DNA of 64,000 nt from a virus. The stretch lies in the IMG/VR virus record IMGVR_UViG_3300042308_000168, positions 110,500 to 174,499 of that record; one strand, given 5' to 3'. Position 1 is the stretch's first letter; each line of letters begins with the position of its first letter. A program made the translations under genes and the position numbers. This document shows positions 20,069 to 44,402 of the stretch, one piece after another. The notes under the pieces are model-generated. The model was not told the origin of the DNA and ran no database searches. It saw only the letters and a list, made by a program, of their open reading frames with translations.

Positions 20069-20069
20069 T

Positions 20070-21284: not shown

Positions 21285-22048
21285 ACATAGGATATTATCA
21301 CACATATCTAACAGACAATCCCGCCATATGGTTGTCTGTTGTTATGGAGCAGTTTAAGATAATGGAAGATAGTGGTCTAGTGGAAAACCTAGACCGCTTC
21401 ATCATTACTGCCATAACGCAGGATGATAGACGCACACATTATTTTAAAGAACTATGCGAATCATACAACTTCAACAATCTAGAAATCCATTTCGTAAACA
21501 ATTCACACAAGAATGATTGCGACATGCTATCACTGATAGAATCCACATCAACAACCGAAGTCATTACATTGAAACGGTTGTGGCAAGAATGTCAAAGAGG
21601 TGATTTCAATGTCCTGTATTTCCACTCTAAGGCAATTACAGGAACGGATAAGCTCCTAAACAATTCTGATATGAAGGCTTTCAAGCGAAGTGTTTATTGG
21701 AGGCAATACCTTAATTGGGGTGTTCTAGAGAAGTGGGAGGAATGCGTAAAAAGGCTTGACAAGTATGATGTATCTGGTGTAAACTATAGCAATGATCCGA
21801 TACCGCATTATAGCGGAAACTTTTGGTGGGCTAAGTCTTCCCATATAAGAAGGCTTCCCGATCCTGAAACGAATGATTGGTGGCACCTTGTTCAAGCAAA
21901 TGCTACCGATCAATGGTTGAAGTATTGTCCACTTCGTTATAAGGATGAACAGTGGGTGACGCATCTAAAGGATACTAAGATGTTTAATGTTGAAGGCGTA
22001 AAAGATAATCCTGCTTTTACAATTACACCAAGGAGATTATACGCATGA
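21281..22048 (+). CDS. putative glycosyltransferase of the HSK/SGNFWW type
   Basis: 255 aa. VLYFHSKAITG, then HYSGNFWWAKSSHIRRLPDP and QWVTHL are typical of a transferase family found in bacterial surface-glycan clusters and large viruses. Acidic residues of a metal site are not obvious. ATGA overlaps on both sides. Confidence 0.62.
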   Translation: MNIGYYHTYLTDNPAIWLSVVMEQFKIMEDSGLVENLDRFIITAITQDDRRTHYFKELCESYNFNNLEIHFVNNSHKNDCDMLSLIESTSTTEVITLKRLWQECQRGDFNVLYFHSKAITGTDKLLNNSDMKAFKRSVYWRQYLNWGVLEKWEECVKRLDKYDVSGVNYSNDPIPHYSGNFWWAKSSHIRRLPDPETNDWWHLVQANATDQWLKYCPLRYKDEQWVTHLKDTKMFNVEGVKDNPAFTITPRRLYA

Positions 22049-23289
22049 AGGTAGCAGTTATTGGCGCAGGTGGACATGTTGGCTTTCCATTCTCTTGTGT
22101 TCTAGCAGAAGCAGGACATACAGTTTATGGTATTGATGTTAACCAGGCAGCGGTCGATATGCTCAACAAAGGTATTGTACCATATATTGAAGAAGGTGCT
22201 GCTGATATTCTAAGAGACAATTTACAGAAAGAGCGACTACTGTTTTCTACAGACTTTGACTTCATTCAAGATGCTGATGTGGTTGCTATCATGATTGGCA
22301 CACCGGTAGATGGAGAAGGCAATGCAAGACTTGATGATCTTTTTAATTTTATTGACGATAATCTTGTTTCTCGTATGAAGAAACACCAGTTGATTGTTCT
22401 AAGATCAACTGTATCACCAGGCACAACTGAGGTTCTTCGTAAGCACTTTCAGAAGCATGGATGGATTGAGGGTATCGATTATTATCTAGTGTTTTGTCCT
22501 GAGCGTGTTGTTCAGGGCAAGTCAATCATTGAAACGACTAAGTTGCCACAGATCGTGGGTGCATTCAATGATTTTTCGTTTAGGGTTGCTAAAAACTTTT
22601 TTAGATCCTTTATTAACAATGAAATCTTCCAACTGACTCCTCGTGAGGCAGAACTTGGCAAGTTGATGACTAACATGTATCGTTATGTTACCTTTGCGTT
22701 TGCCAATGAAATGTGGATGATTGGTGAAAAGCATGGAGTGAACATTGACAAAGTTATCGACGCATGTAATTTCGATTACCCGAGAATGGATGTGCCTCAT
22801 CCTGGACCTAATGTCGGAGGCCCTTGCCTTTTCAAGGACGGTCGCTTTCTTCTTTCTGATATTCCTTTCGGCGACCTTATTCAAACTAGCTTCCTTATCA
22901 ATGAAGGCATGCCAGATTATGTCTTTAACCGTATCAAAGAAATCAACCCTGAGGTAGAGAAGGTTCTTATTCTAGGTGCTACCTTTAAGAAGGGCTGTGA
23001 TGATACTCGTAACAGTCTATCATTCAAGATGAAGAAGGTTTGTAGAAAGCATGGTGTTGATGCATGGATTGTAGATCCCCTACATATCGAAGACATGAAC
23101 ATTCCGGCAGAGAATAAGTTTGATGCTGTAATCGTTATGACGCCACATGATGATTTTACAGACCCTGATAAAATGGGTTATAAGATCACTAGATTTAAAC
23201 ATCATTGTGTCGTTGCTGATATTTGGAAAATGTTCCCAGAAAGTAAACTAAGTAATACGGGCATTTATAAAGTTGGAGATATGCTATGA
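22045..23289 (+). CDS. UDP-sugar 6-dehydrogenase (Ugd/WecC-like)
   Basis: 414 aa. KVAVIGAGGHVGFPFSCVLA is the NAD site; VLRSTVSPGTTE, VFCPERVVQG and GPNVGGPCLFKDG (catalytic Cys) are diagnostic of the UDP-glucose/GDP-mannose/UDP-ManNAc dehydrogenase superfamily, which oxidises a C6 hydroxyl to a uronic acid. Length matches WecC-type enzymes (about 420 aa). Confidence 0.9.
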   Translation: MKVAVIGAGGHVGFPFSCVLAEAGHTVYGIDVNQAAVDMLNKGIVPYIEEGAADILRDNLQKERLLFSTDFDFIQDADVVAIMIGTPVDGEGNARLDDLFNFIDDNLVSRMKKHQLIVLRSTVSPGTTEVLRKHFQKHGWIEGIDYYLVFCPERVVQGKSIIETTKLPQIVGAFNDFSFRVAKNFFRSFINNEIFQLTPREAELGKLMTNMYRYVTFAFANEMWMIGEKHGVNIDKVIDACNFDYPRMDVPHPGPNVGGPCLFKDGRFLLSDIPFGDLIQTSFLINEGMPDYVFNRIKEINPEVEKVLILGATFKKGCDDTRNSLSFKMKKVCRKHGVDAWIVDPLHIEDMNIPAENKFDAVIVMTPHDDFTDPDKMGYKITRFKHHCVVADIWKMFPESKLSNTGIYKVGDML

Positions 23290-24284
23290 AGATTTTGGTT
23301 ACAGGAAGTGAAGGCTCACTAATGCAGGCGGTTATCCCGCTGCTACTAAAGAAGAAGTATGTTGTTTATGGTGTTGATAACCTTGCCCGTTATGGTGAAC
23401 GCCTAGGACATGCTGGTACAGATTATACTTTTATCAAGTGTGATCTTACAGATGGTATTAGTGTTAATAGGCTTGTTGAACAGGTAAAGCCAGACTATAT
23501 CATTCAGGCCGCTGCTACAATCTATGGTGTAGGTGGCTTCAATAAGTATTGCGGTGAAATGTATAAGGACATTACTCTACACGATAATGTCCTTCGTGCT
23601 GCCGTTGCACACAATGTTAAGAAGGTAGTTTATATTTCGTCTTCTATGGTCTATGAGAACTGCCCACAGGTTATCGGTGAGCCAGTTGCGGAAGATATTG
23701 TTGAACAGTATCCAGCACCATCAACCGATTATGGTCTATCTAAGTTTGTTGGTGAAAGAGTATCAAGAGCATACTTTAAGCAGCATGGTCTAAAATACAC
23801 CATCTGGCGTCCATTCAACATCATCACCCCATATGAAAAGAGCGAAGATGAGGAAGTTGGTATCTCTCATGTTTTTGCCGACTACATTAAGAACATCGTA
23901 ATCGAAAAGAAGAAGCCTCTTCCAATCATTGGCGACGGTCTACAGGTTCGTTGCTTTACATGGATTGACGAAGTAGCACAGGCAATTGCAGATTACTCCT
24001 TCTTGGAGAAGACAGACAATGAGACTTACAATCTAGGCAATCCAGAACCAATCTCAATGCGTGTTCTAGCAGAAAAGATCATTGATGTTGCTGCTAATGA
24101 ATATCAGCTATTCACACCTTACTATCCTCTTTACGAAACTGTCGGTGAGTATGAGAACGATGTTAAGGTTCGTATCCCTAATGTTGACAAGGCCAAAGAA
24201 CAGCTTGGTTGGGAAGCCAAGATGAAAGTTGATGACTCCGTTCGTATGTGCCTAAAGTATATTGTGGAGAGCAAGCATGTCTAA
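23286..24284 (+). CDS. NAD-dependent sugar epimerase/dehydratase
   Basis: 332 aa extended SDR. TGSEGSLMQ replaces the usual GxxGxxG spacing but keeps three small residues; VVYISSSMVYENCP and DYGLSKFVGERV supply Ser, Tyr and Lys. WRPFNIITPYEK fits epimerases. Exact reaction unclear (GalE-, GMER- or WbpP-like). Confidence 0.82.
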   Translation: MKILVTGSEGSLMQAVIPLLLKKKYVVYGVDNLARYGERLGHAGTDYTFIKCDLTDGISVNRLVEQVKPDYIIQAAATIYGVGGFNKYCGEMYKDITLHDNVLRAAVAHNVKKVVYISSSMVYENCPQVIGEPVAEDIVEQYPAPSTDYGLSKFVGERVSRAYFKQHGLKYTIWRPFNIITPYEKSEDEEVGISHVFADYIKNIVIEKKKPLPIIGDGLQVRCFTWIDEVAQAIADYSFLEKTDNETYNLGNPEPISMRVLAEKIIDVAANEYQLFTPYYPLYETVGEYENDVKVRIPNVDKAKEQLGWEAKMKVDDSVRMCLKYIVESKHV

Positions 24285-25221
24285 AACATTCGTAGTCACA
24301 GGCTGTAATGGATATATTGGCAGTCATATGTGCTATGAATTGAGAAAGACATATCCCGATTGCATCATACATGGAATAGATAAACATGAAAAGCAACATC
24401 TTAGGTCTCTTTATGATTTTTATCATAATACTGATTTGGTTAGCGATACCATTAATCTTCCTGCGAGAGCGGACGCCATCTTTCACTTCGCCGCCTACAC
24501 AAGTGTCGAAGAAAGTATGCGAGAACCCTTTATGTACCACCAAAACAATCTGGTGGGGAGTATTAGGCTCATTGACCGGGCAATAGTAGAAAGAGCAGAG
24601 AACTTTATCTTTTCATCAACTGCTGCGGTATATGGTGAAAGCCATGATAGTATGTTTGGTCATCTTAACGAGAACCGACCAATGAATGCTCTATCTGTTT
24701 ATGGACATACTAAGCAAGTGGTGGAAGAAATTCTTGCCAGTGTTTATCAAATGAATGTTATGTGCCTTCGCTATTTCAATGCATGTGGTAGAAATGTAGA
24801 AGCAGGTTTGTATGAGGAACATGATCCTGAAACTCACCTGATTCCACTTCTTGCCCGAAGCAAGACTGCCACAATCTACGGTAATGATTGGCCAACTAGA
24901 GACGGTACCTGTATTCGTGATTATGTTCATGTGATTGATATCTGTAAAGCACATTTACTTTCCTATAAGCATATGAGCGGAATGGCAATGAGGACTAATG
25001 ATGTTCTTAATGTTGGTTCAGGCAAAGGATATACAGTAAAAGAAATAGTTGACAAAGCCAATGAAATCATTCATAATGGTGAAATGACTATTGAGTATAA
25101 GGAACGCAGAGAAGGTGATGTTGCTTACCTTGTTGCTAATACAGACAAGATAAAAATGATGTTGAACTTTACTCCGCAATATACACTAGACGACATATTG
25201 GAGTCGATGAAGAATGGATAA
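24277..25221 (+). CDS. GalE-like UDP-sugar 4-epimerase
   Basis: 314 aa from ATG 24277 (8-base overlap upstream). GCNGYIGSHMCYEL, FHFAAYTSVEESMR, FSSTAAVYGES, SVYGHTKQVVEEI and RDYVHVIDICKAHL are the complete GalE pattern. It interconverts UDP-glucose/galactose or N-acetyl forms, supplying donors for the local transferases. Last large enzyme of the island. Confidence 0.9.
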   Translation: MSKTFVVTGCNGYIGSHMCYELRKTYPDCIIHGIDKHEKQHLRSLYDFYHNTDLVSDTINLPARADAIFHFAAYTSVEESMREPFMYHQNNLVGSIRLIDRAIVERAENFIFSSTAAVYGESHDSMFGHLNENRPMNALSVYGHTKQVVEEILASVYQMNVMCLRYFNACGRNVEAGLYEEHDPETHLIPLLARSKTATIYGNDWPTRDGTCIRDYVHVIDICKAHLLSYKHMSGMAMRTNDVLNVGSGKGYTVKEIVDKANEIIHNGEMTIEYKERREGDVAYLVANTDKIKMMLNFTPQYTLDDILESMKNG

Positions 25222-25381
25222 GTGGCAAGAACTAAAAGGTTTGATAGATGCTAGTTTGGCATTTAATGTTCACTATTCATCCGAAAGACCTGTTGAACAT
25301 AATATGTTACATAAGGTCAAGCAATGGATGATCGAACTAGAAGAAAGAGAAGCAAAGGAAGGATCAAAACATGAAGTATAA
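25214..25381 (+). CDS. 55-aa charged helical protein
   Basis: Starts inside the galE-like stop region (ATGGATAAG) and overlaps the acyl-CoA dehydrogenase start by 11 bases. WQELKGLIDASLAF and VKQWMIELEEREAKEG are helices. Translational coupling on both sides suggests it is real. Function unknown. Confidence 0.55.
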   Translation: MDKWQELKGLIDASLAFNVHYSSERPVEHNMLHKVKQWMIELEEREAKEGSKHEV

Positions 25382-27074
25382 AGCACCAGTAGATTCCACC
25401 CTGTTCCTTCTTCGTGATGTTCTAAAGTTTGATAACGAGTTAACAGAGCCAATCCTAACAGAGATTGCAAAATTATCAGAAGAAACTATTGCACCAACTA
25501 ATCAAGAAGGTGATTGGAGAGGTTGCAAACTTTCACAAAAAACACCTATGTTTCCTTTTACAGAACCAGTAGAACCATTGAGTGTTCATGTGCCTGAATG
25601 TTTCCACGGACCATACAAACAGTTTGCAGAGGGAGGTTGGATTGGTCTATCAGTTCCGGAAAGATTTGGCGGCCAAGGTATGCCGTTTACACTTGCGGTT
25701 GCTGCAAACGAATTTGTATCCTCATCTAACATGGCTTGGTCTCTTTTTGCTGGCATTACTCGTGGAGCGATACAAACACTACTAGTTTCTGGTTCAGATG
25801 CACAGAAAGAAACATTCATTCCACCAATGGTGCGTGGTGAATGGACAGGAACAATGTGTCTTACTGAACCACATTGCGGCACTGACCTTGGTTTGCTCAA
25901 GACTAAAGCAGTAGATAAACAGAATGGATCATATGAGATTACTGGCCAGAAGATTTTTATTTCTGGTGGTGAACATGATCTAACAAAGAACATTCTTCAC
26001 CTCGTCCTCGCCCGTGCGGCAGGCGACCCAGAAGGTGTCAAAGGTATTAGTTTGTTTGCTGTGCCAAAGATTCTTCCTGATATGTCACGCAACAAAGTAT
26101 CTTGTGGTTCTATTGAATCTAAGATGGGTATTCATGGTTCACCAACTTGTGTTATGAACTTTGATGGTGCTACAGGATTCCTAATCGGTGAAAGATGCCG
26201 TGGTCTCCAGGGCATGTTTATTATGATGAATGAACTTAGATTAGGCTGTGCTATTCATGGTCTATCACAATCGGAGTTAGCGTTTCAAAATGCCTTACAA
26301 TATGCCAAAGACAGAATCCAGAGTAAGAGTGCCGTCGCTCTTAGCGGTCCTAGTGTCGCTATTCTTTCACATCCTGATATTAGGCGTATGCTTATGGATG
26401 TTCGCAGCATTAATGAAGCTGCCCGTCTATTAGTATTAGAAGCAGCCACATTAGTTGATAAGGGTGGAGAAGAAGCGGAAGATCGTCTTGGTCTTATGAC
26501 TCCAGTTCTCAAAGGTGTTGTTACTGATTATGGTGTTGAGAACGCTATCAAGATGCAGCAAGTATGGGGCGGTCATGGTTATGTCCGTGACAATGGCATG
26601 GAACAGATTGTCCGTGATGCCCGTATTGCCATGATCTATGAAGGTGCTAATGGTATTCAGGCTCTTGATCTTGTTGGTCGTAAGTTGCCAAAGAACATGG
26701 GTCGTGCTATTATGACTTTCTTCAAAGATACTGAAACATTCCTAACAAGTTCTTATGAACACGATATCAACCATATCGTTCAGCCAATGACACAAGCCGT
26801 AAGCGAACTAAAGCAAGCAACTGAATGGTTAGCAGCAAATGGTATGAAGAATCCTAATGATGCTGGTGCAGCAAGTTATCCATATATGAAAATGTTTGGA
26901 TTGGTTTTGTTAGGATTGGCGCATATTCGTATTTGTTTGGCAACCGACGACAAAGCAAGACATACTACCGCAACTTATTTTATGGAGAATGTCTTGCCAG
27001 AAGCCAGTTTCTTACTGAAAAAGATTCGTCAAGGATCACAAACAATGATGGCACTAACTCCAGACGAGTTCTGA
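25371..27074 (+). CDS. acyl-CoA dehydrogenase (DmdC/FadE-like)
   Basis: 567 aa, the size of long acyl-CoA dehydrogenases with a C-terminal extension. In order: HGPYKQFAEGGWIGLSVPER plus FGGQGMP, TGTMCLTEPHCGTDLG (FAD-binding), ITGQKIFISGGEHDL, QVWGGHGYVRDNGMEQI, then IYEGANGIQALDLVGRKL with the predicted catalytic Glu (about 424). The tail after about 450 corresponds to the extra helical domain of the DmdC-like branch. These flavoenzymes introduce a double bond into acyl-CoA and pass electrons to ETF. It follows the sugar island and its codons look phage-like. A phage-borne copy is very unusual; the substrate is unknown. Confidence 0.93.
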   Translation: MKYKAPVDSTLFLLRDVLKFDNELTEPILTEIAKLSEETIAPTNQEGDWRGCKLSQKTPMFPFTEPVEPLSVHVPECFHGPYKQFAEGGWIGLSVPERFGGQGMPFTLAVAANEFVSSSNMAWSLFAGITRGAIQTLLVSGSDAQKETFIPPMVRGEWTGTMCLTEPHCGTDLGLLKTKAVDKQNGSYEITGQKIFISGGEHDLTKNILHLVLARAAGDPEGVKGISLFAVPKILPDMSRNKVSCGSIESKMGIHGSPTCVMNFDGATGFLIGERCRGLQGMFIMMNELRLGCAIHGLSQSELAFQNALQYAKDRIQSKSAVALSGPSVAILSHPDIRRMLMDVRSINEAARLLVLEAATLVDKGGEEAEDRLGLMTPVLKGVVTDYGVENAIKMQQVWGGHGYVRDNGMEQIVRDARIAMIYEGANGIQALDLVGRKLPKNMGRAIMTFFKDTETFLTSSYEHDINHIVQPMTQAVSELKQATEWLAANGMKNPNDAGAASYPYMKMFGLVLLGLAHIRICLATDDKARHTTATYFMENVLPEASFLLKKIRQGSQTMMALTPDEF

Positions 27075-27724
27075 TGTTGTTTGGAGTTTAGATGTTGATT
27101 CCAGTTGTGTTGTCCTTTTATATCACGATTACAGCATGAGCAATGAAACACAGGAGCAGTTTGGAAATACTTCTTTCGTCTTTCCGACTGCTCTTGTCTC
27201 TTTTTAGGGTCAGACCATGTTTCTTTATGCTTCTTTGATAATGCTTCTCTTTTGGCAGTATTGGACCAAACCTTTGAACTTATCTTTGATCTTTCTTCCA
27301 AGTATTCAGGAGAGTTTCTAATGGCCACCATGTTATCACGAAACTCTGGATCATCCCATTGTCTTTTTAGATTATCTGACCTTAGTTTTCTTATCTCAGG
27401 AGCGTTATTGATTTCTAACATTCTGGCATAGTATTCGGGATCAGACCATCTTTCGTTATTCAACTTGGTGGCAAAGTCAGAGATTTCTTGTTGGGACATT
27501 TTGAGTTTTTGAGATATTCTCAAACAAGCGTATGTGTCGTTCTGGGAAAAATGAATATCGTAATGTTCCTGTATAGAAACACACTGGAGATTATCTATAT
27601 GATTATTGGAATGATTACCGTCGATGTGATGGATTTCATACGATCTTCCTTGTTCGTCTTTAGGAATAGGACCGTTGAAATGTTCCCAGATTTTGCGGTA
27701 GTTGGTTGTAGTATAAATATCCAT
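27029..27724 (-). CDS. HNH homing endonuclease
   Basis: 231 aa on the minus strand from ATG 27724, with CGGAGG upstream. YEIHHIDGNHSNNHIDNLQ (about 29-47) is the HNH metal/catalytic motif. Four WSDPE-like repeats (WSDPEYYARM, WDDPEFRDNM, VWSNTAKREA, TWSDPKKRQE) are NUMOD3-type DNA-binding modules, and CSCCNRDIKGQHNWNQH is a zinc finger. Its 3' end overlaps the dehydrogenase gene by 46 bases in antisense, so its last ~15 residues are read from dehydrogenase coding sequence. Free-standing phage homing endonucleases copy themselves into homologous genomes. Confidence 0.9.
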   Translation of the reverse strand: MDIYTTTNYRKIWEHFNGPIPKDEQGRSYEIHHIDGNHSNNHIDNLQCVSIQEHYDIHFSQNDTYACLRISQKLKMSQQEISDFATKLNNERWSDPEYYARMLEINNAPEIRKLRSDNLKRQWDDPEFRDNMVAIRNSPEYLEERSKISSKVWSNTAKREALSKKHKETWSDPKKRQEQSERRKKYFQTAPVFHCSCCNRDIKGQHNWNQHLNSKQHQNSSGVSAIIVCDP

Positions 27725-27782
27725 GCTGGACCTCCGATCAGGTTTAGAGTAGGTGAGGATTCCCGTCCTGCGACCTACACTT

Positions 27783-27790
27783 CTATTTAG
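27783..27790 (-). promoter_or_regulatory. late-like octamer CTAAATAG upstream of the HNH gene
   Basis: On the minus strand, CTAAATAG is followed within a few bases by a stem (GTAGGT with ACCTAC, enclosing AGGA/TCCT). T4 homing endonuclease genes are known to use late promoters and hairpins; this fits, but is a motif match only. Confidence 0.4.
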
Positions 27791-27805
27791 TATTCCGAGG
27801 TTTTG

Positions 27806-27955
27806 ATGAAATCGTGGAAAGAACTTGACTTCCGAGAGCAAATAGAGTATATTAGACAGGCTGAGTATCTCCAAGAAAAAGGATACTTTCCTGGAATAGA
27901 TCCTTTTGTAGTTGCGGAAATGTTGTATCGGAAAAGGAAGTCAAGAAAGGATTGA
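27806..27955 (+). CDS. 49-aa basic-tailed small protein
   Basis: ATG after CCGAGG. WKELDFREQIEYIRQAEYL is amphipathic helix, ending YRKRKSRKD. A weak promoter-like TTGACT-N17-TATATT lies inside it (27824-27852). Function unknown. Confidence 0.5.
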   Translation: MKSWKELDFREQIEYIRQAEYLQEKGYFPGIDPFVVAEMLYRKRKSRKD

Positions 27956-27958
27956 AAC

Positions 27959-28381
27959 ATGGGTCTTGATATGTATCTCTACGGTAATAAGTGTTCTTTT
28001 TCCAAAGAACAAAAGGTCGATGGATTTCCTGTTTCGTCTGTGTTACTTGAAATGGGTTATTGGAATAAACGTGTCAACCTTCATGGATTTATCGTTGAAG
28101 CCTTTGCTGCCGGATTTGATGATGGCCAGAAGATCGATCTAGATAAAGATGACCTTGATTATATTATTAATGTATGGGAGAATGATAGCCATTATGATGA
28201 ACTTGTAACAGGTTTTTTCTTTGGTAAGGCTTATTTCACAGAGGAAAAAGACGAATACGATCCTCATGAGGAACAGAAGGCTCGTGATATAGAACTATTC
28301 ACGAAGGCTAAAAACTGGCTAACTGAAGAACATTCTAAGGATGAATATCGTTCTATCTATTACGAAGCATCGTGGTTATGA
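27959..28381 (+). CDS. conserved phage protein, MGLDMYL family
   Basis: 140 aa. The N-terminus MGLDMYLYG and YWNKRVNLHGFIVEAF with a run of acidic residues after FDDGQ are familiar from an uncharacterised family (MGLDMYL...GYWRKxNxIHxWF) common in phages. The family probably binds something through its conserved Trp/His; role unknown. The Shine-Dalgarno AAGGA is 7 nt upstream. Confidence 0.75.
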   Translation: MGLDMYLYGNKCSFSKEQKVDGFPVSSVLLEMGYWNKRVNLHGFIVEAFAAGFDDGQKIDLDKDDLDYIINVWENDSHYDELVTGFFFGKAYFTEEKDEYDPHEEQKARDIELFTKAKNWLTEEHSKDEYRSIYYEASWL

Positions 28382-28393
28382 GGAGATTGTAGA

Positions 28394-28555
28394 ATGACAG
28401 CGTTTGAAGCAATATTATGGTTAGAATCAACGTCACAGTATTTCAGCAAACGACCAACAAACGGTGAAGATCAAGCATATTGGTCTAATGTGTATAACTC
28501 TGAAAACTGTTTGAAGATTGCCGAACTAATAAGAGAATTATGTAAAGATGACTGA
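28394..28555 (+). CDS. 53-aa hypothetical protein
   Basis: GGAG lies 9 nt upstream of the start. MTAFEAILWLESTSQYFSKR and LKIAELIRELCKDD are helices around a polar middle. It overlaps the dehydrogenase-C-terminus-like ORF by 8 bases. Function unknown. Confidence 0.55.
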   Translation: MTAFEAILWLESTSQYFSKRPTNGEDQAYWSNVYNSENCLKIAELIRELCKDD

Positions 28556-28673
28556 CGATAAGGACAGACACAATACCGCAGAATATTTTATGAACCGTAT
28601 TCTACCAGAAACAAGTATGCTATTGAAGCGTATGCGTTTTGGAAGTGAGACGATGATGAAGGCTGATTTGTGA
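28548..28673 (+). CDS. 41-aa stand-alone copy of the acyl-CoA dehydrogenase C-terminus
   Basis: TDDKDRHNTAEYFMNRILPE and ETSMLLKRMRFGSETMM match the end of the 25371-27074 product (TDDKARHTTATYFMENVLPE, EASFLLKKIRQGSQTMM) at 24 of 36 aligned positions by eye, without gaps. It begins on its own ATG, overlapped by the preceding ORF, and ends in TGTGA overlapping the next. It lacks all FAD and substrate residues, so it cannot be an enzyme: either a remnant of a split or recombined dehydrogenase gene or a retained mini-protein. Confidence 0.75.
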   Translation: MTDDKDRHNTAEYFMNRILPETSMLLKRMRFGSETMMKADL

Positions 28674-28828
28674 GTAAGAAAGAGTTTCTAATCATAACTG
28701 GATTGATTTGCATACTTGCCTCTGCTCCTATGTATGGACTAACTCATGAACCATTAGTTTTAGTGCCCATAGTAGTTTTATTTTTTGCTGTTATTGTATG
28801 TCTAAGGAGTATAAAGAATGAACGATGA
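28670..28828 (+). CDS. 52-aa two-helix membrane protein, GTG start
   Basis: Starts GTG overlapping the previous stop. Hydrophobic segments FLIITGLICILASAPMYGL and LVLVPIVVLFFAVIVCL separated by THEP, then a short basic tail. Function unknown. Confidence 0.55.
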   Translation: MSKKEFLIITGLICILASAPMYGLTHEPLVLVPIVVLFFAVIVCLRSIKNER

Positions 28829-28991
28829 ACGAACTATGACGATGAAGTTTAATAAGGATGGGACAAAACAGGTGACTGAAATTTCATCATCTGCCGCATT
28901 GGGTTTGATTGAAGAAAACGCTAAACTACGACAACGTATCGCAGAATTAGAAGATCAGTTGAATGAAATCAATAACTCAAGCAGAATATAA
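28818..28991 (+). CDS. 57-aa coiled-coil protein
   Basis: MNDERTMTMKFNKDGTKQVT followed by a heptad-like LIEENAKLRQRIAELEDQLN, a short coiled coil. AGGAG 11 nt upstream. It overlaps genes on both sides in other frames. Function unknown. Confidence 0.5.
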   Translation: MNDERTMTMKFNKDGTKQVTEISSSAALGLIEENAKLRQRIAELEDQLNEINNSSRI

Positions 28992-29157
28992 CAAACTGTT
29001 TGATGATTATATAAGAGAACAAAAGTTCGACGGTGGAGACCGGGACAGATGGTATTCTAACCATGTTATCAAGTTCTTCAAGATAACAACGGAAGATACA
29101 GATATCCGTCCTGGTTTCCACGTCAATGAAATAGGTGAGAGAATAGATGAAAGTTGA
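28963..29157 (+). CDS. 64-aa hypothetical protein
   Basis: Overlaps the coiled-coil ORF by 29 bases in another frame. EYNKLFDDYIREQKFDGGDR and FFKITTEDTDIRPGFHVNEI; no recognised motif. Confidence 0.5.
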   Translation: MKSITQAEYNKLFDDYIREQKFDGGDRDRWYSNHVIKFFKITTEDTDIRPGFHVNEIGERIDES

Positions 29158-29278
29158 ATTGTTCGGTATAGCGTTATGGATTGCAATTATCGGAGGACTA
29201 GTATATGCCTTTGGGTTTGTTCCCGTCCTTATTACAATTGCACTTTTCATCGCTTGGTTTATGGTATATGTCGTATGA
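29147..29278 (+). CDS. 43-aa very hydrophobic membrane protein
   Basis: Almost entirely hydrophobic: LFGIALWIAIIGGLVYAFGF and VLITIALFIAWFMVYVV form two membrane helices with almost no loop. ATGA overlap with the next gene. Function unknown. Confidence 0.55.
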   Translation: MKVELFGIALWIAIIGGLVYAFGFVPVLITIALFIAWFMVYVV

Positions 29279-29526
29279 GTAATGATGAACTAATCAAACA
29301 ACTACACGAGTTAGCAGATTGGGTTGAAAAGGCTAATCATGTTCATTGCAACTCTGTCCCTCGCCGTGCTGCATATCTCATACAAAAGTATGAAGATGAA
29401 AACAATCAACTACGCCTGAGGCTTAACAAGAGAGATATATATCTGATCGACTATATCAATCGTGTCATTGGTTTTATAAGACTGCAATGGTATCTATTCA
29501 AAAAGAAAAGAGGAAAGAATGTATGA
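29275..29526 (+). CDS. 83-aa helical protein with basic C-terminus
   Basis: Start taken at the ATGA overlap 29275 rather than the longer frame from 29176. ELIKQLHELADWVEKANHVH, RRAAYLIQKYEDENNQLRLR and LYLFKKKRGKN-like basic end; mid C-terminal FIRLQWYLF may touch membrane. This ELxxxLxxxAxW pattern is common in small phage proteins. Function unknown. Confidence 0.55.
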   Translation: MSNDELIKQLHELADWVEKANHVHCNSVPRRAAYLIQKYEDENNQLRLRLNKRDIYLIDYINRVIGFIRLQWYLFKKKRGKNV

Positions 29527-29783
29527 TGAAATTTTTGATCTTGATCTTAATGGTGGTATTCCCCACGGCGGTTAATGCTCAAGTACCAATGACGACTGAA
29601 AATCGTTCTCTCGGTCCAGGCACATATGAAGAAAGCATGGCACAAATTAACGGCGCACCTCCACCATCTGATGGTTATAGAAAAGGATGGCAGTCATCAA
29701 AGCCTGGTGTATCTATGTCGTATGGAGGAGCAACAGGAACTATTCCTTTACTTAATCCTAATATGGAAGTTCCTGACGAATGA
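29523..29783 (+). CDS. 86-aa secreted small protein
   Basis: MMKFLILILMVVFPTAVNAQ is a Sec signal peptide with cleavage likely after NAQ or NA. The mature part is Gly/Pro/Ser-rich (GAPPPSDGYRKGWQSSKPG) and appears unstructured. One of several exported small proteins in this genome. Confidence 0.6.
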   Translation: MMKFLILILMVVFPTAVNAQVPMTTENRSLGPGTYEESMAQINGAPPPSDGYRKGWQSSKPGVSMSYGGATGTIPLLNPNMEVPDE

Positions 29784-29868
29784 CGAAAATTGATAGCAGA
29801 TTGTCTAGGATTGACTGTTTTCCATCGGCAATCTATGTCATACTATTGTCAAGTAGTCAATAGGGACT

Positions 29869-29909
29869 GCTAAATAACAGACCGGGTAACCTATCCCGGA
29901 AGACCCGGT
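29869..29909 (+). promoter_or_regulatory. late-like octamer plus leader hairpin before pmoC
   Basis: CTAAATAA (29869-29876), then an 8-bp perfect inverted repeat GACCGGGT (29879-29886) / ACCCGGTC (29902-29909). An internal CCCGG (29893-29897) can instead pair with the first arm, so two hairpins compete. The pmoC ribosome site AGGAG lies 11 bases beyond. Confidence 0.5.
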
Positions 29910-29932
29910 CAATAATAAAATAGGAGTGATAT

Positions 29933-30703
29933 ATGAGCGTTGTAAATCAATCGGCGAAAGCCGTGGCTACCGGCGTTAATGAGGTCGTTGACCTTAGGGG
30001 TATGTGGATCGGCCTAGCCCTTCTAAATACCTTTTATCTAATAGTCCGTATTTATGAACAAGTATATGGTTGGCGTGCCGGCCTTGACTCGTTCGCACCA
30101 GAGTTCCAGACATACTGGATGAGTATCCTCTGGACAGAAATTCCACTAGAATTGGTTTCAGGTCTTGCACTAGCAGGTTACCTATGGAAGACAAGAGACC
30201 GTGACCTCGCAAGCCTCTCACCTCGTGAAGAAATGCGTCGTCTAACTGTATTAGTTCAGTGGTTGGTTGTTTATGCTGTTGCTATCTATTGGGGTGCAAG
30301 TTTCTTCACCGAACAAGATGGTACCTGGCATATGACAGTCATTCGTGATACCGACTTCACTCCGTCACATATCATTGAGTTCTACATGAGTTATCCAATC
30401 TATTCAATCATCGCTGTTGGTGCGTTCTTCTATGCGAAGACCCGTATTCCTTACTTCGCACAGGGATATAGCCTTGCGTTCCTGATTGTTGCTATTGGTC
30501 CATTCATGATTATTCCAAACGTTGGGCTCAATGAGTGGGGTCATACATTCTGGTTTATGGAAGAGCTATTTGTGGCACCGCTACATTGGGGCTTCGTATT
30601 CTTTGGATGGATGGCACTAGGTGTCTTTGGTGTTGTGCTACAGATCCTAGGACGTGTTCATTCTCTAGTTGGTAAGGAAGGCGTTGCTCTCCTAACCGAG
30701 TAA
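29933..30703 (+). CDS. pmoC: particulate methane monooxygenase subunit C
   Basis: 256 aa, the normal length of PmoC/AmoC. Five to six membrane helices. EQDGTWHMTVIRDTDFTPSH carries the three metal ligands of PmoC: Asp129, His133 and His146 here, with the D-x3-H-x12-H spacing of Methylococcus Asp156, His160 and His173. IIPNVGLNEWGHTFWFMEEL and APLHWGFVFFGW are also highly conserved. PmoC is the membrane subunit that, with PmoA and PmoB, oxidises methane to methanol (AmoC acts likewise on ammonia). No pmoA or pmoB is present, so it would act by joining host subunits. It has its own leader and a strong terminator and stands alone. Confidence 0.97.
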   Translation: MSVVNQSAKAVATGVNEVVDLRGMWIGLALLNTFYLIVRIYEQVYGWRAGLDSFAPEFQTYWMSILWTEIPLELVSGLALAGYLWKTRDRDLASLSPREEMRRLTVLVQWLVVYAVAIYWGASFFTEQDGTWHMTVIRDTDFTPSHIIEFYMSYPIYSIIAVGAFFYAKTRIPYFAQGYSLAFLIVAIGPFMIIPNVGLNEWGHTFWFMEELFVAPLHWGFVFFGWMALGVFGVVLQILGRVHSLVGKEGVALLTE

Positions 30704-30728
30704 GGTAAATGTAAACGAATGTAAACTG

Positions 30729-30756
30729 GGGTGCGACAAAACGTCGCACCCTTTTT
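30729..30756 (+). terminator. strong rho-independent terminator after pmoC
   Basis: 9-bp perfect stem GGGTGCGAC / GTCGCACCC (30729-30737, 30743-30751), loop AAAAC, then TTTTT. The downstream promoter begins three bases later. Confidence 0.92.
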
Positions 30757-30758
30757 GC

Positions 30759-30787
30759 TTGACAACACCACTAGATTTTGCTATACT
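30759..30787 (+). promoter_or_regulatory. sigma70-like promoter
   Basis: TTGACA 30759-30764, 17 bp, TATACT 30782-30787, driving the run of small genes from 30811. Confidence 0.85.
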
Positions 30788-30810
30788 CCATATCGTCAAT
30801 GGAGATTTAT

Positions 30811-31221
30811 ATGCCGCTTCTTCCCGTCTATTATACCACGACCAATCTTCGCAAGCGCAAGCGCAAGCAGACCAAGCATGATCGTTCCGAGCATGATGCA
30901 TGGTTGGTAAAGATGGGTGTTTCGCCTAAGCAGATTAAGGCAAAGAAGACTAAGAATACTTCCTGGAAGTCTGATTATTCTAATTCATTGCAGGTAGATC
31001 GTTCTACCAAACATCACGAAAAATCTATTCAAGAGGTGTGTAATGCACCTGCAAATGCCACGGCTAATCGTTCCGTGATGGCTAATCTGCATAAAGAGAG
31101 CGAAGAAACTCGCAAGGCTATTCTTGCTAAGGCGGCCAGGACTGCCCCTCTGTATTCCAAAGGTCCATATCAGTATATTACTGACGGCACAAATCTTGAT
31201 GATGTAGGGAAAAAGAAATGA
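30811..31221 (+). CDS. 136-aa basic conserved phage protein
   Basis: Start 30811 follows GGAG with 8-nt spacing. MPLLPVYYTTTNLRKRKRKQ, then EHDAWLVKMGVSPKQIK and a C-terminal TAPLYSKGPYQYITDGTNLD. I have the impression of a widespread uncharacterised phage family (MPLLPxxYT...), but no function is known to me. The Arg/Lys-rich N-terminus suggests nucleic-acid contact. Confidence 0.7.
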   Translation: MPLLPVYYTTTNLRKRKRKQTKHDRSEHDAWLVKMGVSPKQIKAKKTKNTSWKSDYSNSLQVDRSTKHHEKSIQEVCNAPANATANRSVMANLHKESEETRKAILAKAARTAPLYSKGPYQYITDGTNLDDVGKKK

Positions 31222-31502
31222 CTGATAAAATGACAAATGAAGAACTCGTGGAACGTCTCCGTGATTGGGATAACTGTAGCCAAGATGACTATGAACTGGC
31301 GGCACACCGCATTGAAATAATGAATAAGTTTCTGCGTCATAATGTTTTCGCTGAAAAGCATTTTGGTGTCTTTTTCATTTGTGGTGAAGCAGGTGAGAAA
31401 GATATAAACGGTATACCCGAAGAGGTGCATATCTGTCCTGCATATGGATCAGATGTATCGTATGTTTTTACTCGTGGCAAATCATTCGCACCGGAGTGGT
31501 AA
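31218..31502 (+). CDS. 94-aa hypothetical protein
   Basis: ATGA overlap with the previous gene. NEELVERLRDWDNCSQDDYE followed by LAAHRIEIMNKFLRHN is helical; the C-terminal half is mixed. The ELxxRLR...AAxRIExL pattern is common in small phage proteins of unknown role. Confidence 0.6.
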   Translation: MTDKMTNEELVERLRDWDNCSQDDYELAAHRIEIMNKFLRHNVFAEKHFGVFFICGEAGEKDINGIPEEVHICPAYGSDVSYVFTRGKSFAPEW

Positions 31503-31503
31503 G

Positions 31504-31782
31504 ATGAAAGTAAGATACTCAACAAACTGGATGGGTCCAGTCAACAAGAAGTGGATTGATGAAAACGGTAAAGACTGGTGTGCTGGTCGTATTGATGTGT
31601 ATGGTGATGACGTTCCAGAATATACCGAGTTAGGTCTCAATATTATGAAAGGCAAAGACTGGGTTCGGTTTACAAGGTGGCTTGAAGGAAACTTTACTAC
31701 TCCTGAAATATGGACGACCGAGCAGTTGGTTCAGGCATATGAGTTTCATAATCCAAAGATAACATGGTGGGAAAAGAAATGA
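31504..31782 (+). CDS. 92-aa hypothetical protein
   Basis: Start 31504, one base after the previous stop. KVRYSTNWMGPVNKKWIDEN plus RIDVYGDDVPEYTELGLNIM and a Trp-rich C-terminus (FTRWLEGNF, PKITWWEKK). Unrecognised. Confidence 0.65.
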   Translation: MKVRYSTNWMGPVNKKWIDENGKDWCAGRIDVYGDDVPEYTELGLNIMKGKDWVRFTRWLEGNFTTPEIWTTEQLVQAYEFHNPKITWWEKK

Positions 31783-31970
31783 GCAAATTTACACTTGATA
31801 TTGACTACGACATTATGGATGAAATCACTAGGCAAAATCTAAAAGAAGCATATCGTCATGCGGATATGAATGATGATGAAATGCGTAACGCTCTTGATCT
31901 TGTGATAAACTACTTTTCTAGTCAAGAGCAATACCAAGAATGGATTGAGGAGAAACTAAAATATGTCTAA
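31779..31970 (+). CDS. 63-aa hypothetical protein
   Basis: ATGA overlap. SKFTLDIDYDIMDEITRQNL and LKEAYRHADMNDDEMRNALD; acidic and helical. Similar short proteins with a TRxNLKxxY segment occur in other phages; function unknown. Confidence 0.6.
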   Translation: MSKFTLDIDYDIMDEITRQNLKEAYRHADMNDDEMRNALDLVINYFSSQEQYQEWIEEKLKYV

Positions 31971-32262
31971 GATCGTGTTGGTTGAAACCGTAAGTTCTTT
32001 TCGTCATGTTCATGCAGTTGAGTTGCCTGATGATGCACCTGATGATTGGGCTATTGAGGATGTTATCTCTGAAATTACCAAAGATGATCCTGATATGAGT
32101 GAAGTTGGTCAGAAGTGGATCGGCGAAGAAATCTTTTCCCATCGTGTAGTTGATGAGAAAGAATACCTGCGAGTATTTGATGAGATGAATGGTCCTTACT
32201 TTGCTGAATGGCCAGTTGAAAAGAAGAAGGAGTTTATCTTCAAGCGAAAAGAAGAAGCATAA
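31963..32262 (+). CDS. 99-aa acidic hypothetical protein
   Basis: 8-base overlap with the previous gene. KIVLVETVSSFRHVHAVELP and EEIFSHRVVDEKEYLRVFDE suggest a small alpha/beta fold; very acidic in the middle. Unrecognised. Confidence 0.62.
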   Translation: MSKIVLVETVSSFRHVHAVELPDDAPDDWAIEDVISEITKDDPDMSEVGQKWIGEEIFSHRVVDEKEYLRVFDEMNGPYFAEWPVEKKKEFIFKRKEEA

Positions 32263-32270
32263 ATAATACT

Positions 32271-32573
32271 ATGCTCAAAAGATGGTATGAAACTAGACCG
32301 TTCACTTTTGGGGCGGTCTTCATTTTTCTTTATATGACTATACCTATATTAGATCAAGTTTTTATGTATCCGAAGATGAAACCAGTTTGTAATGGAGAAA
32401 TCACGGATCAACAAGCTAGAGCATGTACCGATTGGATCCGAAAGAAGGAGACTCAACATGTTCGAATTGATAAACGAGGACCTGGAAGTCTGCATAGAGA
32501 TACTAAGACAGATGAGTACCTGCGAGAACAGGAACGAGCAATTGCAGATTTTGGCAGAACACAGAATAAGTAA
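32271..32573 (+). CDS. 100-aa single-pass membrane protein
   Basis: FTFGAVFIFLYMTIPILDQV (about 11-30) is a membrane helix; the remainder is charged with two cysteines. Its last 116 bases overlap the next ORF in a different frame. A late-like ATAAATAA lies at 32259-32266. Confidence 0.5.
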   Translation: MLKRWYETRPFTFGAVFIFLYMTIPILDQVFMYPKMKPVCNGEITDQQARACTDWIRKKETQHVRIDKRGPGSLHRDTKTDEYLREQERAIADFGRTQNK

Positions 32574-32643
32574 AAGAGACATTCAGAAAACAGTTGACTT
32601 GTGCGAACTATTGGTGTATTATAATGACAAAATCAAAGACTGA
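32458..32643 (+). CDS. 61-aa helical protein
   Basis: Start chosen for AAGGAG 7 nt upstream, a strong ribosome site inside the preceding gene. MFELINEDLEVCIEILRQMS, EQLQILAEHRISKRDIQKTV and a helical end. Overlaps its neighbour by 116 bases; both frames look coding. Confidence 0.5.
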   Translation: MFELINEDLEVCIEILRQMSTCENRNEQLQILAEHRISKRDIQKTVDLCELLVYYNDKIKD

Positions 32644-32809
32644 TAAAATAGAAGATATAAAAGATCGTGAATTTATGTTGGAGATGGCTGATGAAGTCTG
32701 GCAAAAGTGCAAAGGTATACCAATTCCCGACGACTACTCGGAAGAAGATCGTTTGTCAATATTCGAGCGATACTACCACAGAGCGGTCTCCAAGTCCCAA
32801 GGTGAATGA
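32624..32809 (+). CDS. 61-aa hypothetical protein
   Basis: Start at ATG 32624, overlapping the previous gene by 20 bases. REFMLEMADEVWQKCKGIPI and SIFERYYHRAV; charged, soluble. Unrecognised. Confidence 0.5.
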   Translation: MTKSKTDKIEDIKDREFMLEMADEVWQKCKGIPIPDDYSEEDRLSIFERYYHRAVSKSQGE

Positions 32810-32909
32810 TAAGACCGATATTGAACTAAGATTGTTGGGTGCTGTTATTGGTGCCACTCTCATGTTTGGCATCATGTATCTATCTGCCTTAACAATATAT
32901 GGAGTTTAA
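32802..32909 (+). CDS. 35-aa membrane peptide, GTG start
   Basis: GTG overlaps the preceding TGA. DIELRLLGAVIGATLMFGIM then YLSALTIYGV: one membrane helix with a charged N-terminus. Confidence 0.42.
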   Translation: MNDKTDIELRLLGAVIGATLMFGIMYLSALTIYGV

Positions 32910-32910
32910 T

Positions 32911-33075
32911 ATGAAAGAACTAGTATTTGCAGTCATATCGATTTGTCTTACATCAGGCGAATGTGAGACGCACCAGGTAAAGATTGAGCCTAAGGTATGT
33001 CATTTGAAGTCTTCTCAGGCACAAGTTCCTATGAACGGTGAATGGAAAGATGCCGTTGTAAAATTTAAGTGCTAG
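32911..33075 (+). CDS. 54-aa cysteine-containing small protein
   Basis: GGAG 6 nt upstream. Hydrophobic start MKELVFAVISICLTSGEC may be a signal anchor; four cysteines (positions 12, 18, 30, 54) suggest an exported, disulfide-bonded peptide. Function unknown. Confidence 0.5.
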   Translation: MKELVFAVISICLTSGECETHQVKIEPKVCHLKSSQAQVPMNGEWKDAVVKFKC

Positions 33076-33078
33076 GGC

Positions 33079-33107
33079 TTGACATTCCGTTTAGACTAGT
33101 TTAATAT
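33079..33107 (+). promoter_or_regulatory. sigma70-like promoter of the TTGACATTCCGTTT type
   Basis: TTGACA 33079-33084, 17 bp, TAATAT 33102-33107. The 14 bases from the -35 (TTGACATTCCGTTT) are identical at 47826 and 49793. Confidence 0.82.
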
Positions 33108-33136
33108 GCTTTATAAGATGAATGATGTGAGGAAAG

Positions 33137-34246
33137 ATGACGCAGTTTCTACAGAATGGTAAGGTGTTCCGTCCTAGTGATGAAACCTCTATGTGCGTTC
33201 ATAAGGTTCTTCCTACTGGCAATTTTACCATTGCTAAGGATCCTTTTGAGAATATGTATTTCGAGCGTGTCGATGACTTCGCTCAGCCGGGTAAGCTATA
33301 CGGTGATACCCAGCGTCATACCAACCGTATTCTAAGCACCTTTCTAAGCCGTCCTAATGCAACTGGCGTCCTTCTCTCTGGTGAGAAGGGTTCTGGTAAG
33401 ACAATGCTTGCCAAGAACCTCGTGGTTCAGGGTGCCCAGCAGCACAACCTTCCTACGATTATCATCAACCAGCCTTGGTCTGGTGATCAGTTCAATAAGT
33501 TCATTCAGGATATTCAGCAGCCTGCCATTGTCCTTTTCGATGAGTTTGAAAAGGTATATGACCGTGAGCAGCAGGAAGTTATGCTAACACTCCTTGATGG
33601 TGTCTTTCCTTCTAAGAAGCTATTCATTCTAACTTGTAACGACAAGTGGCGTGTCGATGAGCATATGCGCAATCGTCCTGGTCGTTTGTTCTATTCACTA
33701 GAGTTTTCTGGTCTAACTCCAGAGTTTGTGAAAGAGTATTGCGAGGACAATCTTCTTAATAAGAACCATATCGGTCGAGTCGTAAAGGTATCAACCCTTT
33801 TCGATAAGTTCAACTTTGACATGATGAAGGCTCTTATCGAAGAAATGAATCGATATGATGAGACTCCAGAGCAGTCTTTGGAAATGCTCAATGCTAAGAT
33901 TGAATATGCCAACAAGGCTTCTTACAAAGTTACTCTGAAAAAGAAGGGTATCATCATTGACACTGCCGATGAAATGTGGTCTGGCAATCCTTTGCTGGGT
34001 AGCATTCATGTTGACTACACATACACCAGCTCTAATGAGGGTAAGAACAAGTATATGAATAGTAACCGTCCGCAGCCTGTTGCGGTTGATGATAATGAAA
34101 ACTATGTTTCAATTTCATTTAAGCCAGAGGACTTGGTTGCTCTAGACCCTGTTCTTGGAACCATGACTTTTGTTCGTGACGACCATGAACTAGTCCTAAC
34201 AAAGGTTGTCGCAAAGAAGGTGAACTTCTTTGATATTGCCTTCTAA
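33137..34246 (+). CDS. AAA+ ATPase
   Basis: 369 aa behind a dedicated promoter and GAGGAAAG ribosome site. Walker A LLSGEKGSGKTML (about 82-91), Walker B AIVLFDEFEK (about 132-141), sensor-1 FILTCNDKW and NRPGRLFYSLEF (arginine-finger region) define an AAA+ protein of the FtsH/Rubisco-activase-like kind. The C-terminal ~130 residues are beta-rich and specific to it. Phage AAA+ proteins of this type are usually uncharacterised remodelling factors. Confidence 0.85.
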   Translation: MTQFLQNGKVFRPSDETSMCVHKVLPTGNFTIAKDPFENMYFERVDDFAQPGKLYGDTQRHTNRILSTFLSRPNATGVLLSGEKGSGKTMLAKNLVVQGAQQHNLPTIIINQPWSGDQFNKFIQDIQQPAIVLFDEFEKVYDREQQEVMLTLLDGVFPSKKLFILTCNDKWRVDEHMRNRPGRLFYSLEFSGLTPEFVKEYCEDNLLNKNHIGRVVKVSTLFDKFNFDMMKALIEEMNRYDETPEQSLEMLNAKIEYANKASYKVTLKKKGIIIDTADEMWSGNPLLGSIHVDYTYTSSNEGKNKYMNSNRPQPVAVDDNENYVSISFKPEDLVALDPVLGTMTFVRDDHELVLTKVVAKKVNFFDIAF

Positions 34247-34275
34247 ATAAGATATACCTTTTAAGGGAGAAACAA

Positions 34276-34509
34276 ATGATTGTAGGAGATAAAGTAAGTC
34301 ATTCCGCTGTAACCGAAGCCTATTGCCTTATCTCTTCCTATATCAGGGAAGAGGGTAAGATTGGCGCTAACTATAACAAGGAACATCTATTGGACTTTGT
34401 TAACTTTCTAGCGGAAGTCTTAAAGCATCCAGAGAATTTTACGAATACGGCGCCAGTCAAATTGGCGCCGGTAGAAACCCCCGAACATGATGGTACGGGT
34501 TTAGCATAA
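34276..34509 (+). CDS. 77-aa hypothetical protein
   Basis: Ribosome site GGGAGA. IVGDKVSHSAVTEAYCLISS is helical, with a Pro/Thr-rich tail. The 3' part contains an 8-bp perfect hairpin (CGGCGCCA / TGGCGCCG, about 34449-34471). A late-like CTAAATAA lies upstream at 34243. Confidence 0.6.
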   Translation: MIVGDKVSHSAVTEAYCLISSYIREEGKIGANYNKEHLLDFVNFLAEVLKHPENFTNTAPVKLAPVETPEHDGTGLA

Positions 34510-34525
34510 GAAAGGTGAATGCATA

Positions 34526-34816
34526 ATGAATAAGTTTTATATGGCAACTGTTATCGTCCTCGGTCTAACCGGCTCAGCACTTGCTCTAACTACACAGGAC
34601 GAGACTCACAATGGCGTCACTGCCGCTGTTCCTGGTCCAACTAAGAGCAAGGGCTTTCTAGCTCCAGCCGCTCAGGTTACTCCGCACGGTATGGTTGTGA
34701 CTGCTCCTCCGGGCGCAAATGTCGTTGTCGATAATGATGACGGTGACATTGAGATTGATATCGCTCCTTCAGGTAAGAAGCGTGGTCTTCTAGGCCTAGG
34801 ATTTCTAGGTCTATGA
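34526..34816 (+). CDS. 96-aa secreted protein
   Basis: MNKFYMATVIVLGLTGSALA is a Sec signal peptide (cleavage after ALA). The mature region has PPGANVVVDNDDGDIEIDIA and ends in a Gly/Leu-rich stretch KKRGLLGLGFLGL. Probably periplasmic; coupled with the next exported protein by an ATGA overlap. Confidence 0.65.
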   Translation: MNKFYMATVIVLGLTGSALALTTQDETHNGVTAAVPGPTKSKGFLAPAAQVTPHGMVVTAPPGANVVVDNDDGDIEIDIAPSGKKRGLLGLGFLGL

Positions 34817-35049
34817 GAAAGGCCCTAGTCGTTCTGGCTATGCTCGTTAGCACTTCTGCTTTCGCTGCACCTTATGGCACATATTATAACCCTGTGCAGG
34901 ATCCACCATTCGCTGGTGATTGGTCTGTTCCAGTGCATCGTGGTATGTATTGTGTTCAGGGAACTTGGCACTATGGCTGGCTTCGTCCTTGGGAACGCTC
35001 TCCTGTAATCAAGCCATCTTGTGGAACTGCAATCTATCAGATTCAGTAA
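34813..35049 (+). CDS. 78-aa secreted protein with two cysteines
   Basis: MRKALVVLAMLVSTSAFAAP is a typical signal peptide (cleavage after AFA). Mature part is Tyr/Trp/Pro-rich with two cysteines (MYCVQGT, PSCGTAI), consistent with one disulfide in the periplasm. Confidence 0.68.
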   Translation: MRKALVVLAMLVSTSAFAAPYGTYYNPVQDPPFAGDWSVPVHRGMYCVQGTWHYGWLRPWERSPVIKPSCGTAIYQIQ

Positions 35050-35061
35050 AGCATCGGAAAA

Positions 35062-35092
35062 CTAAATAGTGGTGTCCAATTACGGACACTAC
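35062..35092 (+). promoter_or_regulatory. late-like octamer plus 5' stem-loop
   Basis: CTAAATAG (35062-35069) directly followed by the 9-bp stem GTGGTGTCC / GGACACTAC (35069-35077, 35084-35092; one G-T), then TTGGAG and the holin-like gene. Confidence 0.5.
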
Positions 35093-35103
35093 TATTGGAG
35101 AAT

Positions 35104-35340: not shown

Positions 35341-35345
35341 GATTT

Positions 35346-35370
35346 AGGGGAGCATTTAGCTCCCCTTTTT
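35346..35370 (+). terminator. terminator between holin-like and spanin genes
   Basis: Perfect 8-bp stem AGGGGAGC / GCTCCCCT (35346-35353, 35359-35366) with loop ATTTA and T5. The stop codon of the convergent o-spanin gene lies in it, so it may work in both directions. Confidence 0.85.
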
Positions 35371-44178: not shown

Positions 44179-44196
44179 TTATATAAGGATGTGAAA

Positions 44197-44397: not shown

Positions 44398-44402
44398 CAT
44401 GT

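Follow-up and report, generated by a model that had tools for sequence, protein, structure and literature searches.

The locus described here raises the question of why a virus that carries a complete gene for an acyl-CoA dehydrogenase (ACAD) should hold, downstream of it, a second copy of the end of that gene as a separate open reading frame (ORF) of 41 amino acids (aa), and by which route this copy came to stand alone. The locus lies within the window, which is the whole 64,000-nt stretch of DNA that was analysed (positions 110,500–174,499 of the 174,499-bp virus record IMGVR_UViG_3300042308_000168). Owing to a PmoC/AmoC gene at 29933–30703 (PF04896, E 3e-109) and 25 tRNA genes in a single cluster at 44102–48693, the record resembles, in its gene content, the pmoC-phages of methanotrophs described earlier (PMC7674155). 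The host bacteria of these phages are likely methanotrophs. Related loci, denoted by L-numbers, were gathered in scans of viral contigs with the ACAD, the tail DNA pattern, HNH, ORF140, ORF64 and tail 1 as queries, and all contigs compared are metagenome assemblies. A near-DNA comparison of window positions 20000–36000 with a phage collection gave zero matches. A promoter and terminator scan returned no terminator and 10 promoter-like sites against 4.7 expected, from which no conclusion is drawn. The features to which the text refers are as follows.

25371–27074, plus strand: ACAD gene, 567 aa, intact, with its 3′ end replaced (Pfam PF02771, PF02770, PF00441, PF12806)
26717–28585, no strand assigned: tract with zero variable sites among 7 HNH-bearing contigs; the putative left arm is its ACAD portion, and the putative right arm is the start of tail 2
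26943–27074, plus strand: tail 1, the foreign replacement C-terminus, 43 codons and a stop, ending in MMALTPDEF
27029–27724, minus strand: HNH_3 endonuclease, 231 aa, with a C-terminal C2H2-type zinc finger (PF13392, E 7e-14, above cut-off; zf-met, E 9e-4, slightly under its cut-off; phrog_12324, E 2e-31)
27803–27955, plus strand: ORF50, a small cargo ORF of 50 aa, found at all 9 of the close HNH loci
27959–28381, plus strand: ORF140, a small cargo ORF of 140 aa
28394–28555, plus strand: ORF53, a small cargo ORF of 53 aa with its stop codon within the tail 2 junction
28548–28673, plus strand: tail 2, the displaced native ACAD 3′ end, now the 41-aa ORF with an acquired ATG
28551–28558, plus strand: 8-bp microhomology ACTGACGA at the right junction, where the native ACAD codons equal the small-gene start ATGACTGACGACC in L048
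28659–28672, plus strand: within tail 2, AAGG, a 7-nt spacer and the GTG that starts the next gene
28670–28828, plus strand: next gene, 52 aa, whose GTG start overlaps the tail 2 stop
28963–29157, plus strand: ORF64, with a homologue directly after the intact ACAD in L006 and after tail 2 in L003, L017 and L023

The relationship between the two ends, which the original prediction had put at 24 of 36 positions, is confirmed: residues 2–37 of tail 2 are identical to ACAD residues 525–560 at exactly that count (tblastn E 8e-13), and the Smith–Waterman score of tail 2 against the ACAD is 127, compared with a maximum of 49 among 5000 shuffles. At the DNA level, tail 2 and tail 1 agree at 70 of 108 bases and differ at 38, the differences being distributed over codon positions 1, 2 and 3 as 13, 7 and 18, with third positions affected most. 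Pfam places tail 2 on the last part of Acyl-CoA_dh_C (PF12806) with an E of 4e-6, under the family cut-off. The best PDB relative of the ACAD is 6ijc_A (E 4e-154); its structure model is poor (mean pLDDT 45) and shows local helices at residues 528–541 and 544–560 in the tail region. The predicted arrangement, with an HNH endonuclease and three small genes between both copies, also holds, the nuclease being of the HNH_3 type on the minus strand and the small ORFs comprising 50, 140 and 53 aa. With a repetitive-ORF region at about 66–80 kb set aside, this is the sole duplication of the kind long gene/short ORF seen in the 174,499-bp record. The region set aside (65.9–80 kb), which lies outside the window in the same record, contains very long ORFs rich in internal repeats, possibly tail fibre genes.

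Which of the two ends is native becomes apparent from relatives. The ACAD end of L019 equals tail 2 in 39 of 40 residues, and the body of the L019 ACAD is 74% identical to that of the window. When the locus was compared in related phages without HNH, as had been proposed, the tail-2-type end was found in frame on an intact ACAD. Moreover, tail 2 adjoins the old neighbour of the ACAD: an ORF64 relative follows the intact ACAD in L006 via an ATGA overlap, and ORF64 follows tail 2 in L003 via a GTGA overlap. Relatives of both ORF64 and ORF116 stand behind the intact ACAD in L006, L104 and L107, the gene order in L104 being ACAD, ORF64, ORF116, PmoC. These observations bear out the earlier suggestion of recombination or homing in which the ACAD received a new end and its old 3′ tail stayed behind. 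No native record sharing the right flank of the window was found, and the nearest empty sites have an ORF64 of just about 35–37% identity. In L100 and L101 (4001–6843), the order from ORF64 to PmoC occurs with ACAD and tails absent within 4 kb upstream.

The ACAD end is visible, with the family HNH absent behind it, in 22 contigs (L005–L010, L012–L014, L019–L021, L104, L107, L203–L207 and L209–L211), many of which are near-duplicates; in L008, only about 0.7 kb downstream is visible. HNH together with both tails is visible in 9 records (the window, L001, L003, L004, L011, L015, L017, L022 and L023), which represent 8 haplotypes, L001 being identical to the window. A second full tail is present in 9 of 9 HNH records versus 1 of 22 HNH-less contigs (L005), and the Fisher p of 5e-7 for this association serves only as a guide, since the near-duplicate contigs and the identity of L001 with the window make the rows non-independent. 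Seven other contigs carry tail 2 with the ACAD out of view (L027, L028, L029, L037, L042, L048 and L049), and all of them start within or just upstream of the insert. In L021 (5001–6756), the ACAD homologue is split over several frames and is apparently a pseudogene or the product of poor assembly.

Tail 1 has a different character. It is 95–100% identical across HNH-bearing contigs, shows 57–67% DNA identity to the ACADs of HNH-less phages, and extends three residues beyond the end of the native phage ACADs compared. Among 80 bacterial ACAD relatives, with endings such as MELAAEAF and MALPAEAF, the MAL..F pattern is found in 36, and identity is higher for tail 1 than for tail 2 in 57. Judged by these comparisons, tail 1 is foreign, with an ending of the length and type of bacterial ACADs. 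The tail 1 scan of viral contigs found no HNH-less phage bearing tail 1, which would be a candidate donor.

The right junction records how tail 2 obtained its start codon. DNA continuous with the native ACAD of L209 begins only at 28551, and no longer ACAD remnant, for which a search had been proposed, was found. At the place where the native L203 and L209 have CTTGCT-ACTGACGATAAGGACAGACACAATACC, the window has ATG-ACTGACGATAAGGACAGACACAATACC. ORF53 has the same end in L048, where a different small gene, starting ATGACTGACGACCTAATC, comes after it; the small-gene start at the junction microhomology is ATGACTGACGA, and the corresponding native ACAD sequence is ACTGACGATAAGG. An L048-type gene start and native ACAD joined at ACTGACGA give the window junction exactly, ATG included. 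In other words, the ATG of tail 2 was gained at the microhomology junction, replacing the internal Ala codon GCT, and was not kept from an older gene, as the original prediction had held; the native right side of the donor is deduced here from L048 only. L005 and L048 have another junction in common, AATGAAGGACAG, and L028 shows yet another upstream context. Tail 2 of L048 has lost its C-terminal part. L005 carries two tails with HNH absent, and its first tail belongs to a type of its own, distinct from both tail 1 and tail 2; after the ACAD stop it reads GATGTTGTATCTGAAAAGGAATAAGTGATGAC, similar to the ORF50 end in L004, and ATGTTGT occurs at both places (ACAD stop and ORF50 end) in the window and L004. 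Hence L005 resembles a descendant that lost HNH by deletion between the ATGTTGT repeats.

The inserted nuclease combines an HNH_3 domain with a separate DNA-binding region, the zinc finger, by which a free-standing phage HNH homing endonuclease is recognised, and it is the sole HNH_3 match in the whole record. Between the window and L004, its gene has a dN of 0.0125 and a dS of 0.116; on these values, it is under purifying selection. Protein relatives of HNH occur at 27 loci, 9 at 97–100% identity and 18 more distant. Tail 2 adjoins HNH in 9 of 9 close loci; the L058 contig starts inside HNH, so that the ACAD is out of view there. No ACAD lies within the fetched flanks of the 18 distant relatives (L060–L077), and no C-terminal duplication of the ACAD/tail 2 kind was recognised beside them, the hits being short similarities among neighbouring small ORFs. 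Of the cargo, ORF50 is 100% conserved in L031 and L037 and 93% over 46 aa in the contig of L004, which is without ORF140. All 8 loci found for ORF140 are 100% identical and belong to contigs of this element. The HNH frame also enters the last 46 bases of the ACAD in antisense (27029–27074), and in this way the nuclease end and tail 1 are physically tied.

Variation along the locus is sharply partitioned. Among the window, L003, L011, L015, L017, L022 and L023 (of which L022 and L023 cover the left part incompletely), there are 0 variable sites in 26717–28585, a tract of 1869 bp that spans HNH, compared with 69 in 26200–26716 and 10 in 28586–28670. L004, which is several per cent different, was excluded from this test, and L037, which starts inside HNH, differs at a few sites. 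The right edge of the tract falls inside tail 2, where the first part is common, the last 30 bases and the sequence beyond differ between groups, and the 3′ part is a mosaic. This shared first part and divergent end fit the trace expected of gene conversion in which tail 2 would serve as the right arm. In the tree of ACAD residues 1–440, L003 and L004 group together (96/91) and are joined by L005 (100/99), apart from the window; in the tree of residues 450–567, the window is identical to L003, and L004 stands outside the pair (100/99 for the three). On these trees, the phylogenies of the 5′ and 3′ parts of the ACAD gene are in conflict.

The best explanation, with a probability of roughly three in four, is that an insertion of the homing type took place in the phage ACAD gene at its 3′ end, with tail 2 as the right homology arm. 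Displacement, replacement, the invariant tract, the mosaic tail 2, the tree conflict and the microhomology are legible in the sequences themselves, and the process behind them may be pictured as follows. The mobile unit would consist of the replacement ACAD 3′ end (tail 1), the gene for the HNH–zinc finger nuclease and the three small passenger genes, and its insertion would have displaced the native 3′ end, now tail 2, by about 1.5 kb downstream. We infer that HNH cuts tail-2-type ACAD alleles of a co-infecting phage and that the break is repaired from the carrier, with the ACAD sequence as the left arm and tail 2 as the right arm. The recipient would acquire HNH and tail 1, and its own 3′ end would become the new tail 2. 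Tail 1 may resist cutting, given the 38 of 108 bases at which it differs from tail 2. The first insertion presumably took place without a right arm and would have been closed via the 8-bp microhomology to the start of a small gene, giving tail 2 its ATG. Tail 2 would then be retained both as the right arm and for its last bases, from which the next gene apparently takes its ribosome site and start codon. Unusual conservation of the target DNA among native ACADs was considered and not upheld, as 48-bp windows equal to or better than the target were few in only 2 of 21 pairs (L209–L019, 10/445; L006–L107, 11/407).

A less likely account treats HNH as a passenger: general short-homology recombination between co-infecting phages would add small genes at the ACAD 3′ end, and the surviving inserts would be those that duplicate the upstream gene end, keeping the enzyme C-terminus and the start site of the next gene. 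It draws on short ACAD-end remnants that occur without HNH. In L012 (7010–7042), a 33-bp piece is separated from the stop by about 300 bp with two small ORFs, and L009 is the empty version of this site, in which the gene after the piece directly follows the ACAD (94 of 100 bases identical). Similar pieces of about 32 bp in L019 (6824–6855; score 20 versus a maximum of 13 in 20 shuffles) and about 18 bp in L209 (4349–4366; 15 versus 11 in 20 shuffles) were found, and no remnant above chance was seen in 6 of the 10 HNH-less haplotypes tested (L006, L008, L009, L014, L107 and L203). Since the three remnants lie behind small-gene inserts in haplotypes that now lack HNH, displacement may not strictly depend on this nuclease. 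A Shine–Dalgarno (SD)-like motif with a start codon for the following ORF is kept in all three, as in 6 of 8 tail 2 alleles tested and 7 of 10 native ends, on a motif set that is broad and without a chance control; this suggests that the remnants were retained for these signals. A start for a following ORF of at least 30 aa is absent in tail 2 of L015 and L037. The many right-hand contexts that occur after tail 2 across contigs also suit general recombination. However, the invariant 1869-bp tract carries HNH over several flank combinations, and this spread and the purifying selection on HNH agree better with a nuclease that drives the process.

Translation of tail 2 is possible, and the presence of a start codon and an open frame behind several different upstream sequences, its mostly synonymous allele differences and its stop/start overlaps with neighbours would suit a functional small gene, for example one for a peptide replacing or modulating the ACAD C-terminal helices. 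That role is nevertheless rather improbable: a full-length ACAD with an intact C-terminus stands upstream, L048 has lost the C-terminal part, and no independent relatives were seen outside ACAD loci. The low dN/dS of tail 2 was dropped as functional proof, because the variation is recombination-derived and confounds the ratio. An assembly artefact fusing two strains is very improbable. All the data are metagenome assemblies and several contigs break at or inside the element and may come from a common lake, yet many different IMG records contain contigs with this same tail 2 junction, followed by several right flanks. The second copy of a C-terminus downstream of a gene also recalls the template/variable repeat pairs of diversity-generating retroelements, or an alternative 3′ exon behind an intron, both of which are scarcely credible here. 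The differences are not A-specific (A at 11 of the 38 differing sites in tail 2 and 13 of 38 in tail 1), the ACAD is complete without splicing, and Rfam intron families are absent over 26500–29500 (E up to 1), where only three sub-threshold snoRNA/lncRNA matches appeared.

If HNH cuts as the homing reading supposes, 3′-end-replacing homing would also operate in phages, with an unrelated nuclease, which would make it a convergent arrangement alongside introns and inteins. The process would also account for orphan C-terminal fragments in the genomes of phages and hint at how overlapping gene arrays gain genes with neighbours unbroken. ACAD alleles that are candidates for sensitivity and for resistance are available and form a ready test system. 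In addition, the gene affected has a metabolic role and lies near pmoC in phages likely to infect methanotrophs, so that the process would reshuffle metabolic genes carried by phages. Somewhat better than evenly balanced is the broader proposal that phages carry a homing class like the WHO elements of yeasts, independently evolved with an HNH–zinc finger nuclease and using the displaced end as the second arm, and that 3′-end duplication is a general gene-adding route in overlapping arrays because it preserves both the end of the upstream protein and the downstream start site.

Among phages, a full-text search of open-licence literature, which leaves most subscription papers outside, found no precedent for 3′-end-replacing homing. 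Three Lake Mendota phages share a 2-kb region with part of an ACAD gene near a partial pmoC, for which recombination during coinfection was suggested (PMC7674155). Phage homing genes have been treated as exchange boundaries, and the portions available of that report hold no description of C-terminal duplication (PMC10448857). The seg/mob intronless homing of T4 is similar in its free-standing phage HNH nucleases (mob) and co-conversion tracts, and for the intron homing of T4, illegitimate repair that is one-sided and leaves microhomology junctions has been reported; a displaced copy of a host-gene end is not described in the portions available (PMC2988022).

Closer likenesses come from eukaryotes. 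In fungal mitochondria, mobile ORFs with a carboxy-terminal duplication occur in atp6 of Allomyces and in atp6, atp9, cox2 and nad3 of Glomus; there, an endonuclease ORF is inserted with a foreign C-terminus and the native C-terminus is displaced (by about 1 kb in atp6), the native end being near that of a relative (91–98%) and the inserted end divergent (64–81%). These systems differ in being mitochondrial, with a LAGLIDADG example, and in that the native end of atp6 and cox2 is untranscribed (PMC3630166). WHO elements, known from Torulaspora and Lachancea, give FBA1 a new 3′ end at each integration, and the displaced fragment that stays downstream is the proposed second homology region; a zinc-finger endonuclease lies downstream of a metabolic host gene, in some cases in opposite orientation, and trees of the host gene disagree between its 5′ and 3′ parts (PMC7282813). 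The phage locus has the same features, with a nuclease gene directly downstream of its host gene, outside an intron or intein, a divergent 3′ replacement whose old end is kept downstream, and conflicting 5′ and 3′ phylogenies. WHO elements differ in residing in a yeast nuclear genome, in their LAGLIDADG/intein-type nuclease, in the aldolase gene FBA1 as host gene and in that cutting was shown, and passenger genes are not mentioned in the available portions of that report (PMC7282813); the phage locus has small passenger genes, an HNH nuclease, ACAD as host gene and a start codon from a microhomology junction. Since its nuclease belongs to the HNH_3 family and not to the HO/VDE-related, intein-derived LAGLIDADG type, the phage element is one that works like WHO and is not WHO by descent.
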